Positions 4,020 to 9,054 of a stretch of 10,841 nucleotides of DNA are shown here, in pieces. Made by a program: the position numbers and the translations under genes. How positions within the stretch are numbered: position 1 is the first letter of the stretch; the number at the start of each line of letters is the position of its first letter. The stretch comes from Xanthobacteraceae bacterium (lineage in GTDB: Bacteria; Pseudomonadota; Alphaproteobacteria; Rhizobiales; Xanthobacteraceae), in NCBI GenBank assembly GCA_030037185.1, contig JASHRR010000651.1:1-10841 (forward strand). The letters are read 5' to 3'. The notes beneath the pieces were generated by a model. The model saw nothing but the letters and a program-made list of their open reading frames with translations, was not told where the DNA came from and did not search any database.

Positions 4020-5305
4020 TTAACGGCCTGAATTTGCGCGCGCGGCAAAAACGTCGCCGAGTAGTCGCGGCCAGCCAAGCACCAGATTGTTGACGTTGGG
4101 AGTGCCAAGCCCTGTGGGAAAATCCCAGCCGATTCCCGCTTTGAAGGCCGGCTGGTATGATGTCGTGGACCTCGACAGCACGCCAAAAGTTCCCCCGGGC
4201 GCGTAGCAATTGGGGCTTTCTGCAAAACATGGTGCGTCGTTATCCCCTTGGGTCACGTCATTGAAAATACAAGTGACGAACGGGCCCCCGCTTCGCGAGG
4301 AGTTGCAGCCGGCGGGATTGGTAAGTTGGGACAGCCCGAAAAGTAGGTAATACGCGGGAGTGGGTAGCCCCTGGCGGCCGCCCGCGTACTCGTTAACCAG
4401 CGTCTGGATTCCCGCCCAGATAGGCGAAGCAAAGGAGGTCCCATCACTCTCCACCCAATCGGCAACTGTGCTGTTGCAAACAACAGGAGAATAACAGAGC
4501 CGGTAGGCGTGCCCCCATACCCAGTTGCCGGCGGGATCCATGATCCGCCGGAAGACACCGCCGGATGAGAATAACGAGACATCGCTAAGTACGCGATGAT
4601 TGGTGCCTATCGGAACAAAAGGAAGCTGCCACAAGGGCACGGGGTATATTGTGCTTGTCCCGGCGGTCGTCCCCGGAAAACTATGGAGGAAAACGGTATT
4701 ACCTGGGGCGTTGTTACAGAATCCATCAGCGCCATACGTGGTCGCAAACCCGAAGGCATTGGCGATCAGCACGCTGCCACAGGAGCTGTTCCAGGGGATT
4801 TCCGGAATGCAGGACCTCGCAGACGACTTGTTTAGATAGTCGGTCGACGAACGGTTGCTCGGTAACCAGTAATTTGCGACTTGGTTTAAGTAGCTGTCTA
4901 GGAAATCGGTGCCGCCTACGGCGACGTTCCACGGTGTGGAGGAGAGCCCGCTGACTGATAGGCCAAGCGTAGAAAACGAAGCGCCATTGCCGTCACATTT
5001 GTACCCAAGGGCGTCACCTGAAGAGACGAAGACGCTGATACCGATCAAAGCCGCCGTCAAGTACAGATTGTTAAATGTCGCGTTCGCTGCTGGTCCGAGC
5101 TCAGCCTCACACTCGCCATAACTGATGCTGATGACGCCGGGCGGGTCAGGCCGACGTCGTTGGCCGCATTGGCCTCCGGCCGGGTATGGCCGGGAAGCAT
5201 GATCCGCTGTGTATTGTCTACTGCTTGCCGGATTAGAGCCACTGATTGCGCGCCTGATGGAGACGAAAACTGCACGGCAAAGCCGAGCATGATCGCGCCA
5301 CTCAA
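4020..5305 (-). pseudogene. S53 (sedolisin/kumamolisin-like) peptidase with large internal deletion
   Basis: Sedolisins are secreted acid serine-carboxyl proteases with a long propeptide. The 5' piece (TTG at 5305, AAGGAG seven bases upstream) encodes a signal-like segment and the propeptide start NTQRIMLPGHTRPEANAAND. The next family-like sequence, in another frame, is already mid-catalytic-domain: PPGVISISYGECEAELG and then GISVFVSSGD. The rest of the propeptide and the front of the catalytic domain, with the Glu and Asp of the Ser-Glu-Asp triad, are gone. Counting from the Met at 5060, what remains has the oxyanion Asp16, VGGTDF, the nucleophile motif DGTSFASP (Ser209), a calcium-site stretch FNDVTQGDN and the normal end (GLGTPNVNNLV). 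The 3' part runs open for 346 codons. Upstream of TTG the same frame reads TRRALLSGAIMLGF, a better signal peptide, with an ATG at 5325 one base out of frame. The protein cannot be an active peptidase. Confidence 0.85.
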
Positions 5306-5842: not shown

Positions 5843-5871
5843 TTGGCGCGGGGAAGCCCTCGTGCTACAGT
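5843..5871 (+). promoter_or_regulatory. Candidate promoter of the BlaI-M56 operon
   Basis: TTGGCG (5843-5848) and TACAGT (5866-5871) are separated by exactly 17 bases, each matching the sigma-70 consensus at 4 of 6 positions. Transcription would begin near 5878, about 40 bases before the repressor start. The -10 box lies inside the left arm of the dyad at 5862-5885. Confidence 0.45.
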
Positions 5872-5885
5872 GCGTACTGTTACAC
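5862..5885. promoter_or_regulatory. Candidate BlaI-type operator
   Basis: GTGCTACAGT (5862-5871), spacer GCGT, then ACTGTTACAC (5876-5885) form an inverted repeat: the inner ACAGT/ACTGT arms are perfect and the 10-base arms match at 8 of 10 positions. Known BlaI/MecI operators are dyads containing TACA/TGTA-type half-sites, which this resembles. It covers the -10 box and expected start site, so a bound repressor dimer would block polymerase. Autoregulation by the adjacent BlaI-like protein is inferred. Confidence 0.5.
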
Positions 5886-5917: not shown

Positions 5918-6298
5918 ATGAACGAAAGCATGCCGGACCTGGGCAACCTCGAACGTGATGTGATGCAGTTGATCTGGGCCAACGGGCGGCTCACGGCAGA
6001 GGCTGTACGCGAGAAACTGGCGCGGCGCCTCAAGGAGTCGACGGTTCGCACCGTGCTTCGGCGAGTGGAGGAAAAGGGTTACGTGAATCATACCGTAGAC
6101 GGGCGGACCTACGTCTACCAGGCGACGCATCCCCGCGGGAAGGTTGCGGCCAAGGCTGTCCAGCGGATCGTCGATTTGTTTTGCAACGGATCGGTCGAGG
6201 AGGTTCTAGTCGGCATGGTCGACAGTGCCATGCTCGACCAGCGGCAACTGCGCATTTTGGCCGACAAGGTCGCGAAGGCGAAGAGAGGGAAGCGGTAG
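5918..6298 (+). CDS. BlaI/MecI/CopY-family transcriptional repressor
   Basis: This 126-residue DNA-binding repressor is the usual partner of an M56 membrane protease. Residues 8-70 form the winged helix: LGNLERDVMQLIWANGRLTA at the start, the recognition-helix region STVRTVLRRVEEKGYV at 41-56 and the wing HTVDGRTYVYQA at 58-69. Residues 75-126 form the dimerisation part, with IVDLFCNGSVEEVLVGMVDS typical of the family. Length is normal. In BlaI and MecI, cleavage in the dimerisation domain relieves repression; the site here cannot be assigned. The start at 5918 has only a weak purine tract upstream; ATG 5930 (MPDLGNLER) is an alternative. Its stop overlaps the GTG start of the protease gene by one base, so the two are almost certainly co-translated. 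A dyad over the promoter suggests autoregulation. Confidence 0.93.
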   Translation: MNESMPDLGNLERDVMQLIWANGRLTAEAVREKLARRLKESTVRTVLRRVEEKGYVNHTVDGRTYVYQATHPRGKVAAKAVQRIVDLFCNGSVEEVLVGMVDSAMLDQRQLRILADKVAKAKRGKR

Positions 6299-9054
6299 TG
6301 TCGGACCTGCTCTTGGAATCGGCGTTGCGGTCGCTGGCGCTCGGCGTTGCCGTATGGCTCGGCCTGGTGTTCCTGCGCGTGCGGAACCCGCGCGCTCATA
6401 TGACTGCATGGACCGTCGTGCTGGTCGCCTCCCTGGCGATGCCGGTTCTGATGCATCGTCTCACCGTGAACATTCCCGCCGCCGCGCCGCCGTTACGCGT
6501 GGTGGAGTCCCTGTCGTCAATACTGTCAGGCCCTCTGTCGGAACAGGTCGAGATTCCGGTGCTTCCGGCGCAGGGCCCCCCCGCCCTGCCGCCCGCCGCG
6601 GAGCCCAGCACCGTCCAGCCGCCGTCCCAGTCCGGTACCAAGGAGTCGCTTGTCCGCTTCATTGATTCAATGCAAAGGGGACAGCCAAATTATGATGAAA
6701 TGAGCCCTGAGCTCGCCGCTGCTAACCGCTCACAAGTTTCCTGGTCTGGACCGCTGATGAAGAGCTTGGGCCCATTACATTCAATCACCTTCAGGACCGT
6801 GAATGCGCAAGGGTGGGATGTCTACGACGCAGCTTTCGAAAAAGGCGGCGTGGAATTTTCGATTGCTCCTCTCACCTCGGATGGCAAAGTCACGGCTCGA
6901 GCATGGAACATATTAAGCGGGGCCGAGGCCGTAAGCCCGGCCCAGCGGGCGATGCAAGAATGTCAGGCACGCTATAAATTTGACGCGAGCCATATGTGGG
7001 TAGGACGATGGCCCTTCGTCGAGGCATGCTTCAAGGAAAAGACCGGCTTGTATCCCGGCCAGGTTCCGGTCGATCGGCGTAGGCTCGGTTGGTCAGGCTT
7101 CGACTGGCGCACGCTGGCTACAGCTATCTACCTCGTCGTCGCCGGTGTGATGCTTCTGCGGCTGCTCACAGGCCTGCTACTGAGCTTTAGGATGGCCCGC
7201 GCCGCCCGGGGCATTGACGAAGGTTGGACCGGCGGCGCCGACGTTCGTGTGAGCGATGCCGCCGGGACGCCGGTCACGTTCGGCTCGACAGTTCTGCTGC
7301 CTGCCGAATACGCCGATTGGGGCGAGGAGAAGCGGCAGATCGTGCTGTCACACGAGCGAGCGCACATCGCACATGGCGATTTCTATGTGCTGCTGCTGGC
7401 GGCGTTCAACCGCGCAGTGTTCTGGTTCAACCCGCTCGCATGGTGGCAGCTCGTCCGGATGGCGGAGCTCGCGGAAATCATCAGCGACGACACGGTGCTC
7501 GAAAAGCTAGACGACCGGCCATCCTACGCTGGTATTCTGGTCGACTTAGCCCTTCATAAGGCGACGGTCACCGTCGCAATGGCGCGGGCCTGTACGCTGC
7601 GCAAGCGAGTTGAACGAATTCTGGCCGGGACCGCCGTGCCGGCCCGCATGGGCTGGCGAAAACGCGGGATGGTGGCGATTGCGCTTGCTCCGGCGGTGAT
7701 GTTTTCCGCAGCCGCCGTCGTACCGGGCGCGTCGAAGCCGTCGGCCGAAAGCGTGGCCGCCAGGCCGGGCGCGTCCCCGCCGTACGCCGATACAGTCGAG
7801 CGGGAACCGCACCCGTTCGATCGTTACGTTGGTTACTACGAGTTCGATCCTTCTCGCGCGGTCGCCGTCACGCGTGCGAGGGATCGCGTGATCCTGCATG
7901 AGACTGGACGGCTGAAATTCGAGGCGACAGCGTACGGCGATAGCGAGTTCGTCTCCCGGGACACCGACGAAACTGTCACATTCACGTCCGACGCCGAGGG
8001 CCGCACCACCGCGTTGCTGCTCGGCGAATCGGGGATGATATTACGGCGCGCGGTCCGGATCGACGCCGAGCGCGCACAACAGATCGAGAATGCCTTCGCC
8101 CGCCAGGTCGCAACTGCGCCGGACCGGTACAAGGATCAGTTGCCGGAAGACGGCAGCGAAGCCGCAGTTCTGTGGGCAATCGACGATCTGCAGCGCGGCG
8201 CCCCGAGCTACCGACGCATGAGCAAGCCTTTGGCGGATATCGTCCGTCGCCAAATCGCTCAGTGGCACGCCATGCTCACCGCGCTCGGCGCGGTCGAGTC
8301 GGTCTTCTTTCGCGGCGTCGGGCCCGGCGGCTGGGACATCTACGGCGCCAAATTCGCGCGCGGCCTTGCTGAATTTCGCGTGCGATTGGCTTCGGACGGA
8401 AACATCGATGGCATGTTCTTCCGGCCCGACGGCGATAGCACGCCCGGCGAAATACTGACCTGCACGCAGGAGCAGACGTTGAAAGCGGTGCCGGACACCG
8501 TGCCAATCCGACTGCTGCTCTACAATGAAAGCGGCGCCGACATCCGCGCGTTCGCCCTCGACGGTGACGGCAGGCGATCGCGCGACGTCAAGATCGGTGA
8601 CGACCGGTCGGCGCCGTTCCTAACCCACGTCGGCCAGCCCTGGGTTGTCACGGATGCCTCCGGGCAATGCCTCGAGATCATCATGCCGGGACAGACCACG
8701 CGGTTCCTCATTATACGAGCCGACGCGCACGAGCAGGCCGGCCGGCCCGCGCCGCAGCGCACAACCCCGATGTCGGGTAGCCAGCAAGCGCTTCGCCGGT
8801 ATATGGACGCGCTCGGCCGCGGCGAGCCCAACTACGAAGACATGACGCCGGAAATAGCTCGGTACACACGCCAGAACCTGGTGCTCAACCAGGCGATATT
8901 GGCGAGGCTTGGTGCATTGCGGGCAATGTTGTTCCGGGCCGCTACAGTTTATGGCGAAGACATCTACTTTGTCCATTTTGCCAATGGCTCGGCGGAGTGG
9001 CGCATCGGCCTTGTCAAGCAGGGCAAGATCGGGCGAATTGCGCTCGCCCCGTAG
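6298..9054 (+). CDS. M56 (BlaR1-type) membrane metalloprotease with NTF2-like, DUF3471-like and VHL-beta-like sensor domains
   Basis: A 918-residue inner-membrane protease predicted to inactivate the adjacent repressor on receiving a signal. GTG at 6298 is chosen because AGAGAGGGA precedes it and translation reads straight into TM1; an upstream ATG in this frame lies inside the repressor gene. Order: TM1 (~9-26), TM2 (~34-53), Pro-rich linker, NTF2-like copy A (~112-205), a segment with Cys222 and Cys244, TM3 (~272-295), M56 domain with SHERAHIAHGD (zinc ligands His352 and His356, catalytic Glu353) and Glu393 in AEIISDDTVL as third ligand, TM4 (~457-476), DUF3471-like domain (~505-590), NTF2-like copy B (~620-712), VHL-beta-like domain (~733-806), NTF2-like copy C (~826-918). 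With BlaR1 topology all non-protease domains are periplasmic. No penicillin-binding SxxK/SxN/KTG domain is seen, so a beta-lactam ligand is not expected. Copy A is less GC-rich than the rest. M56 assignment is firm; the sensor-domain names are by motif recall. Confidence 0.92.
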   Translation: MSDLLLESALRSLALGVAVWLGLVFLRVRNPRAHMTAWTVVLVASLAMPVLMHRLTVNIPAAAPPLRVVESLSSILSGPLSEQVEIPVLPAQGPPALPPAAEPSTVQPPSQSGTKESLVRFIDSMQRGQPNYDEMSPELAAANRSQVSWSGPLMKSLGPLHSITFRTVNAQGWDVYDAAFEKGGVEFSIAPLTSDGKVTARAWNILSGAEAVSPAQRAMQECQARYKFDASHMWVGRWPFVEACFKEKTGLYPGQVPVDRRRLGWSGFDWRTLATAIYLVVAGVMLLRLLTGLLLSFRMARAARGIDEGWTGGADVRVSDAAGTPVTFGSTVLLPAEYADWGEEKRQIVLSHERAHIAHGDFYVLLLAAFNRAVFWFNPLAWWQLVRMAELAEIISDDTVLEKLDDRPSYAGILVDLALHKATVTVAMARACTLRKRVERILAGTAVPARMGWRKRGMVAIALAPAVMFSAAAVVPGASKPSAESVAARPGASPPYADTVEREPHPFDRYVGYYEFDPSRAVAVTRARDRVILHETGRLKFEATAYGDSEFVSRDTDETVTFTSDAEGRTTALLLGESGMILRRAVRIDAERAQQIENAFARQVATAPDRYKDQLPEDGSEAAVLWAIDDLQRGAPSYRRMSKPLADIVRRQIAQWHAMLTALGAVESVFFRGVGPGGWDIYGAKFARGLAEFRVRLASDGNIDGMFFRPDGDSTPGEILTCTQEQTLKAVPDTVPIRLLLYNESGADIRAFALDGDGRRSRDVKIGDDRSAPFLTHVGQPWVVTDASGQCLEIIMPGQTTRFLIIRADAHEQAGRPAPQRTTPMSGSQQALRRYMDALGRGEPNYEDMTPEIARYTRQNLVLNQAILARLGALRAMLFRAATVYGEDIYFVHFANGSAEWRIGLVKQGKIGRIALAP

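Follow-up and report, generated by a model that had tools for sequence, protein, structure and literature searches.

The window analysed here, a 10,841-nucleotide (nt) stretch of DNA from a Xanthobacteraceae bacterium (contig JASHRR010000651.1), carries a gene for a BlaI-family repressor that overlaps a gene for a BlaR1-like membrane zinc protease of the M56 family. We consider it probable that the two products work as a BlaI/M56 signalling pair whose receptor has exchanged the beta-lactam acylation sensor for stacked domains with ligand-binding or accessory roles, such as those found on S12 hydrolases. At the level of sequence, the window shows an overlapping gene pair with an intact protease site; a conserved predicted operator stands before blaI both here and in the relatives, where it also precedes DUF1800-DUF1501, S12, S9 and RND genes. 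The system may thus have been redirected to another signal.

The gene pair and its sensor stack

The repressor belongs to the Penicillinase_R winged helix family (PF03965), for which its score of 95.4 bits compares with a cut-off of 22.6. The protease open reading frame (ORF) begins with a GTG codon at position 6298, overlaps the blaI stop by one base and ends with a stop codon at 9052–9054. Its product matches the M56 peptidase family (PF05569) at 67.4 bits against a cut-off of 31, carries an HExxH motif with a downstream ExxxD zinc site, and yields a predicted model whose fold matches the membrane and protease parts of BlaR1. An original prediction made from the letters of the window had given this protein four transmembrane (TM) helices, a HERAH zinc motif and Glu393, and this description holds: the model has helices at residues 2–25, 31–53, 270–302 and 453–472 that, taken with hydropathy, are compatible with four TM segments, and residues His352, Glu353, His356, Asp361, Glu393, Asp397, Tyr410 and Arg440 do not vary across the 88 aligned sequences, one of which is the query.

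The stretch after TM4 spans about 446 residues, and the original prediction that it forms a sensor lacking a penicillin-binding domain is supported by both motifs and predicted structure. Residues 481–918 contain none of the motifs SxxK, SxN, YxN or [KH][ST]G, and the protein reaches 38.8 bits against the BlaR1/MecR1 equivalog model NF000326, far from the cut-off of 400. A fold like that of penicillin-binding proteins (PBPs) was considered for the sensor and rejected, as motif and fold searches were blank and other folds, modelled with high values in the predicted local distance difference test (pLDDT), occupy the region.

Fold matches of the predicted structure likewise agree with the proposal that the sensor is assembled from NTF2-like, DUF3471-like and VHL-like modules. 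One NTF2-like domain lies in the loop between TM2 and TM3, and TM4 is followed by a DUF3471-type barrel, a second NTF2-like domain, a VHL-beta-like domain and a third NTF2-like domain. The three NTF2 repeats share 32–41% mutual identity (pairwise E values of 4e-15 to 2e-19), well beyond chance, and the cone-shaped fold of the NTF2-like superfamily is present. The window protein scores 22.7 and 26.3 bits against PF11954 (DUF3471), relative to a Pfam cut-off of 29.3; precomputed matches to this family exist for 103 of the 120 relatives listed in a protein search, and the metagenome protein P0003 has none. In fold searches, the barrel matches Ulm16 and 1ei5 and the NTF2-like domain matches Cpe.

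This last match bears on an alternative in which beta-lactams or peptidoglycan fragments are still sensed, non-covalently through the NTF2-like and DUF3471-type domains, with S12 hydrolases induced as the cell's own resistance response. In the cephalosporin esterase ORF12/Cpe, the N-domain is similar to the NTF2 repeat and its Lys89 touches bound clavulanic acid (PMC6478378), and the predicted targets described below include PF00144 proteins and an RND pump. The suggestion that the pair senses a different ligand or envelope state stands in part: the sensor is not a penicillin-binding domain, but a link to beta-lactam-like chemistry is conceivable because several predicted targets have a beta-lactamase fold. 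We regard continued sensing of beta-lactams or peptidoglycan fragments as unlikely and favour a pair whose acylation sensor was replaced by the domain stack.

For the VHL-beta-like domain, the fold alone matches. Pfam gave no VHL (PF01847) match to the fragment up to an E value of 10, and a profile built from 15 homologues found no VHL chain in the PDB up to the same value, its one match being at chance level; a PDB profile search with the NTF2 alignment returned none. Hydroxyproline sensing was considered as a likely function of this domain and rejected. At the positions we take to be equivalent to W88, Y98 and H115 in the hydroxyproline pocket of pVHL (by an ungapped placement), the aligned sequences mostly carry Ala (73/88), Asp (48/88) and Gln or Glu (77/88). 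With most sequences deviating at three of the five pocket positions, such sensing is unlikely.

Stack residues Cys722, Cys791 and Trp782 are invariant in all 88 aligned sequences. The stack could instead be mainly a scaffold for dimerization or anchoring, leaving the membrane part to read the envelope or membrane state. NTF2-like domains often dimerize, and the number of DUF3471 units, which varies from one to four in relatives, would suit a spacer, yet the strong conservation of the stack, these three residues included, speaks against such a role, which we judge to be quite improbable.

The replaced-sensor architecture is not confined to one genome. The protein search found 590 relatives; profiles for M56 and the VHL-like domain match all 120 of those listed, some only partially, and some of the listed proteins are fragments. 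Their domains are repeatedly arranged as DUF3471 (one to four copies)-NTF2-VHL-NTF2, with P0093 and P0113 lacking the last NTF2-like domain. Six relatives of 1101–1136 amino acids (P0028, P0032, P0088, P0094, P0121 and P0122) have four consecutive DUF3471-type barrels before NTF2-VHL-NTF2. A query with the NTF2-VHL-NTF2 module matched 62 of 391 Bradyrhizobium-family genomes at E ≤ 1e-6, 41 of them nearly completely (E ≤ 2e-78). An order-wide draw gave five matches among 397 genomes at E ≤ 1e-20, all already found, and thus no further genome with the full module. Forty of the 41 loci were analysed, G393 being excluded since the contig stops at its M56 gene, and one of the forty, L139, is truncated where its contig ends; in the 39 readable loci, blaI is directly upstream of the M56 gene without exception. 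The C-terminal architecture is conserved next to blaI: the stack is shared by the 120 listed relatives, and blaI adjoins the M56 gene in 39 of 39 loci. A fusion artefact of a single genome, raised as a danger, does not apply to the C-terminal stack, which belongs to a conserved family, and could still apply to the loop domain (two of 121 proteins).

Each of 11 genomes has one strong BlaI match, and two have an additional marginal one (E of about 8e-4). Each of seven genomes has one long M56 protein (open frame of at least 858 amino acids), and five of these also encode a shorter one of 411–424 amino acids. The BlaI protein beside L008 was missed by a one-sequence profile and was detected weakly or with a better profile. 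Among side observations on sensor modules, loci L015 and L016 encode separate DUF3471+NTF2 proteins of 283 amino acids (in 294-amino-acid open frames) that have no M56 part and are possible stand-alone relatives of the sensor. In L001, an M56-DUF3471-NTF2 gene is directly followed by a 254-amino-acid DUF3471+NTF2 ORF, an arrangement suggestive of a sensor module that became detached or was copied.

The predicted operator and its candidate targets

In 39 of 39 loci, a 22-nt site with the consensus TGCGACrnTCTGTAGCGTTACA begins 33–53 nt before the aligned BlaI start. The predicted window operator is the best ungapped match to the relatives' seed (15 of 20 fixed positions); its first base is 55 nt before the blaI start, and a 33-nt gap separates its last base from the start codon. 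A position weight matrix (PWM) was trained exclusively on 45 pre-blaI sites, among them that of the window and five from more distant loci, so the score of 22.4 bits for the window operator is not independent. As background, the best scores in 1833 segments of 350 nt have a 99th percentile of 6.1 bits and a maximum of 29.2.

This matrix, built from sites before blaI, detects a second site behind the M56 gene. DUF1800 is encoded in 29 of the 39 loci, with DUF1501 behind it in 28, and in 27 of these 29 a second site scoring 22–31 bits is located no more than 350 nt from the M56 stop. L114 and L135 have an S12 match intervening after the M56 gene, and their second site is directly before DUF1800; the displaced L135 site has the same score as the background maximum. 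Overall, the second site directly precedes DUF1800 in 28 of 29 loci, with its first base 45–111 nt (median 78) before the aligned DUF1800 start, and in L121 it precedes an S9 match, which is followed by DUF1800. The ten loci without DUF1800 have second-site scores of −2.7 to 21.6 bits (Mann-Whitney P = 2.5e-5 for score by DUF1800 presence, the window counted among those without). In L113, the site behind the M56 gene precedes an RND-type efflux operon encoding HlyD-type and ACR_tran proteins. Assignments of DUF1800, DUF1501, S12 and S9 were confirmed by Pfam in scanned representatives and extended to other copies by similarity to these. Which genes share the operator, a question left by the original prediction, is largely answered for the relatives (DUF1800-DUF1501, S12, S9 and RND genes).

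As a separate observation, eight loci whose M56 gene is not followed by DUF1800-DUF1501 (L127, L129, L130, L137, L140, L146, L149 and L151) have a second operator of 8.5–21.6 bits, compared with 22–31 bits where the pair is present, as if the operator were decaying, which would provide a natural test of the link between operator and target.

A pattern covering both types of site, with at most one mismatch, was searched for in 41 genomes. It gave 106 hits at 93 places (35 and 58, overlaps counted once), 17 of which are away from the blaI-M56 locus. Six of these 17 precede S12 or S9 genes: an S12 gene with DUF3471 (PF11954) in each of G336, G105 and G363, all three Pfam-scanned, an S12-PDZ gene in G336 with a homologue in G383, and an S9 gene in G338. 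The S12 gene behind the operator in G383 (L202) is split over three reading frames, being either a broken gene or a sequencing error. A seventh distant place precedes DUF1800-DUF1501 in G281, in which the M56 gene ends at a run of ten N. Six genomes have 15–21 PF00144 and 4–10 PF00326 matches, and three of them have one or two DUF1800 matches. If target genes make up 0.4–1% of all genes, finding six of 16 distant places before them (G281 excluded) has a binomial P of 3e-11 to 7e-9, a value that serves as a guide only because related genomes do not supply independent sites: G336 and G363, for instance, have S12 genes with 93% identity.

Since three predicted S12 targets carry PF11954, the barrel type of the receptor itself, a more specific version can be put forward tentatively. 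The receptor would be built from satellite domains of the enzyme class that it induces, namely DUF3471 and NTF2-like modules without a catalytic domain, and would read an S12 substrate non-covalently and switch on S12, S9 and DUF1800-DUF1501 genes through BlaI cleavage. If true, the system would parallel the BlaR1 principle without covalent binding, with an enzyme governed by its own dead relative acting as receptor.

Several points weigh against the replaced-sensor reading and its regulon. The operators are motif predictions, and a reversed-pattern control gave 208 hits against 106 real ones, equalling or exceeding the real count in 40 of 41 genomes. Because site counts are not enriched over this control, the case for a regulon rests on the position of the sites. 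In the window itself, no second site above 12 bits and no DUF1800, DUF1501, S12 or S9 match was found. Two candidates for remote control of DUF1800 were dropped: G281, in which the ten-N run leaves rearrangement and scaffold error indistinguishable, and G393, counted as local, in which a 3.1-kb run of N lies where blaI-M56 belongs. An exact site in G213 is ambiguous: on one side it has a long ORF, on the other a divergent stretch weakly similar to S12. Nine sites, all with one mismatch (L164, L198, L199, L203–L207 and L209), have no target-family gene behind them, and at L204 and L206 other ORFs begin 73–79 nt after the site. In addition, confidence in the predicted protein model is low around TM1, TM2 and TM4, and mostly low in the TM parts generally.

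The loop domain and other features of the window

The loop between TM2 and TM3 is 239 residues long in the window protein (P0001) and in P0003, compared with at most 114 in the remaining 68 of 70 proteins in which motifs allowed measurement. The NTF2-like domain that it contains is likewise found solely in these two of 121 proteins. Its insertion has a G+C content of 56.4% and a third-codon-position G+C content (GC3) of 61.6%, compared with 64.5–68.6% and 75.2–81.6% elsewhere in the gene. Among the compared loci, the closest relative of the domain (51% identity) is a sensor domain of the M56 protein at L008, from a Rhodospirillales metagenome-assembled genome (MAG). Because of this low G+C and GC3 and this closest relative, the loop domain looks as though it was acquired by the window lineage.

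Such an insertion, together with the missing targets, might alternatively mean that the window copy is decaying and its signalling lost. Consistent with decay, the loop exceeds the next longest of the 70 measured by 125 residues, and neither a second operator nor a known target gene was found in the window. Nevertheless, all 918 codons are open, neither the catalytic residues nor the blaI operator has been lost, and P0003, which differs from the window protein at nine amino acids, retains both the frame and the insertion. We consider decay very unlikely.

Coordinates of the features are collected in Table 1. An Rfam scan of the window gave no match. Two further stretches were observed outside the gene pair. 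On the plus strand, positions 2464–2622, the end of ORF 2278–2622, encode LLDRLERGDVLVVCKLDRLGRD directly after ORF 671–2461; we take the former to read like a piece of a serine recombinase, possibly a mobile-element relic, and the latter to be porin-like. On the minus strand, ORF 4020–5060 has a Pfam S8 match at an E value of just 0.18 and an SDGTSFASP motif, from which we presume that it resembles the C-terminal part of a subtilisin/sedolisin-type protease; it is possibly a broken gene.

Table 1 Features of the blaI-M56 locus in the window
Feature	Position	Strand	Basis or remark
Predicted BlaI operator, TGCTACAGTGCGTACTGTTACA	5863..5884	+	Seed match and PWM
blaI, BlaI/MecI-family repressor, 126 amino acids	5918..6298	+	PF03965, 95.4 bits, E 3.6e-27
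M56 (BlaR1-like) membrane zinc protease with non-PBP sensor, 918 amino acids	6298..9054	+	GTG start
TM2-TM3 loop insertion, residues 104-262	6607..7083	+	Loop length, G+C, GC3
NTF2-like domain 1, residues 114-204, in loop	6637..6909	+	Hidden Markov model (HMM) match
TM3 and zinc protease core, residues 266-450	7093..7647	+	HERAH 352-356, Glu393, Asp397
DUF3471-type barrel, residues 496-600	7783..8097	+	
NTF2-like domain 2, residues 620-710	8155..8427	+	
VHL-beta-like domain, residues ~727-813	8476..8736	+	
NTF2-like domain 3, residues 828-918	8779..9051	+	HMM match and alignment

Proposed signalling and relation to known systems

In the mechanism that we propose, BlaI would repress its own operon and the target genes in the unsignalled state. 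The signal would be a periplasmic ligand, probably a peptide or other small molecule akin to what the induced hydrolases act on; it would bind the NTF2/DUF3471/VHL-like stack non-covalently and shift the sensor against the TM2-TM3 loop, as in BlaR1. The zinc site would then turn to BlaI and cleave it, perhaps between Gly99 and Met100, and the regulon would be expressed. We assume this cut position from an alignment to the Staphylococcus aureus site, by which the proposed position carries Met in 42 and Ile in four of 46 BlaI proteins; by the same kind of placement, Met occupies the proposed autocleavage-loop position in 46 of 46 M56 proteins. In the window lineage, the extra NTF2-like domain may tune or widen sensing, since in BlaR1 the equivalent loop, which joins helices 2 and 3, sits docked in the sensor until ligand displaces it (PMC9834060). 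The BlaR1 protease cuts BlaI directly (PMC9834060).

The BlaR1/BlaI and MecR1/MecI systems of staphylococci and Bacillus licheniformis share with the window protein an M56 gluzincin with HExxH and ExxxD motifs and four TM segments. They also share a C-terminal sensor that, by analogy, lies outside, an adjacent BlaI-family repressor and an operator before the repressor gene. The spacing of Glu393-Asp397 and Asp361 is as reported for BlaR1 (PMC9834060). Unlike BlaR1 and MecR1, the window protein has no class D beta-lactamase-like sensor and carries five other domains instead, and whereas those receptors control blaZ or mecA, the predicted targets here are DUF1800-DUF1501, S12, S9 and RND genes.

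Exchanged sensors are common in this family. Other pairs (among L009–L079) place an M56 core beside BlaI with TonB_C, CarboxypepD_reg or other tails. Of 77 M56 loci, a set that includes L001–L008 from the window's kin, 72 encode BlaI upstream, and a PBP domain is absent from all ten scanned M56 proteins with non-PBP tails, L008 among them. The proposal of an undescribed M56/BlaI class is therefore not sustained, and because pairs with other sensors are common, we treat the system as a variant and not as a separate class. In the open-access literature, subscription papers and preprints being outside the search, neither this sensor architecture nor a connection of BlaI with DUF1800-DUF1501 was the subject of any paper that we found, and a search for DUF3471 returned none. 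The candidate regulon is new, and the sensor type is a variant of a widespread M56/BlaI design.

BlaR1 and MecR1 have been studied mainly as beta-lactam receptors. A conserved Bradyrhizobium-group relative for which operator and regulon are predicted and the sensor stack is defined makes it possible to test directly, in laboratory strains, what non-PBP M56/BlaI receptors sense and control. It also opens DUF1800 and DUF1501, both of which Pfam gives as being of unknown function, to study through their regulation. At the level of single domains, the receptor shares its DUF3471-like barrel with the PBP cyclase Ulm16 and the D-aminopeptidase 1ei5, and its NTF2-like domain with ORF12/Cpe, but has no serine hydrolase domain as these enzymes do; with the beta domain of pVHL it shares a fold without a sequence-profile match.

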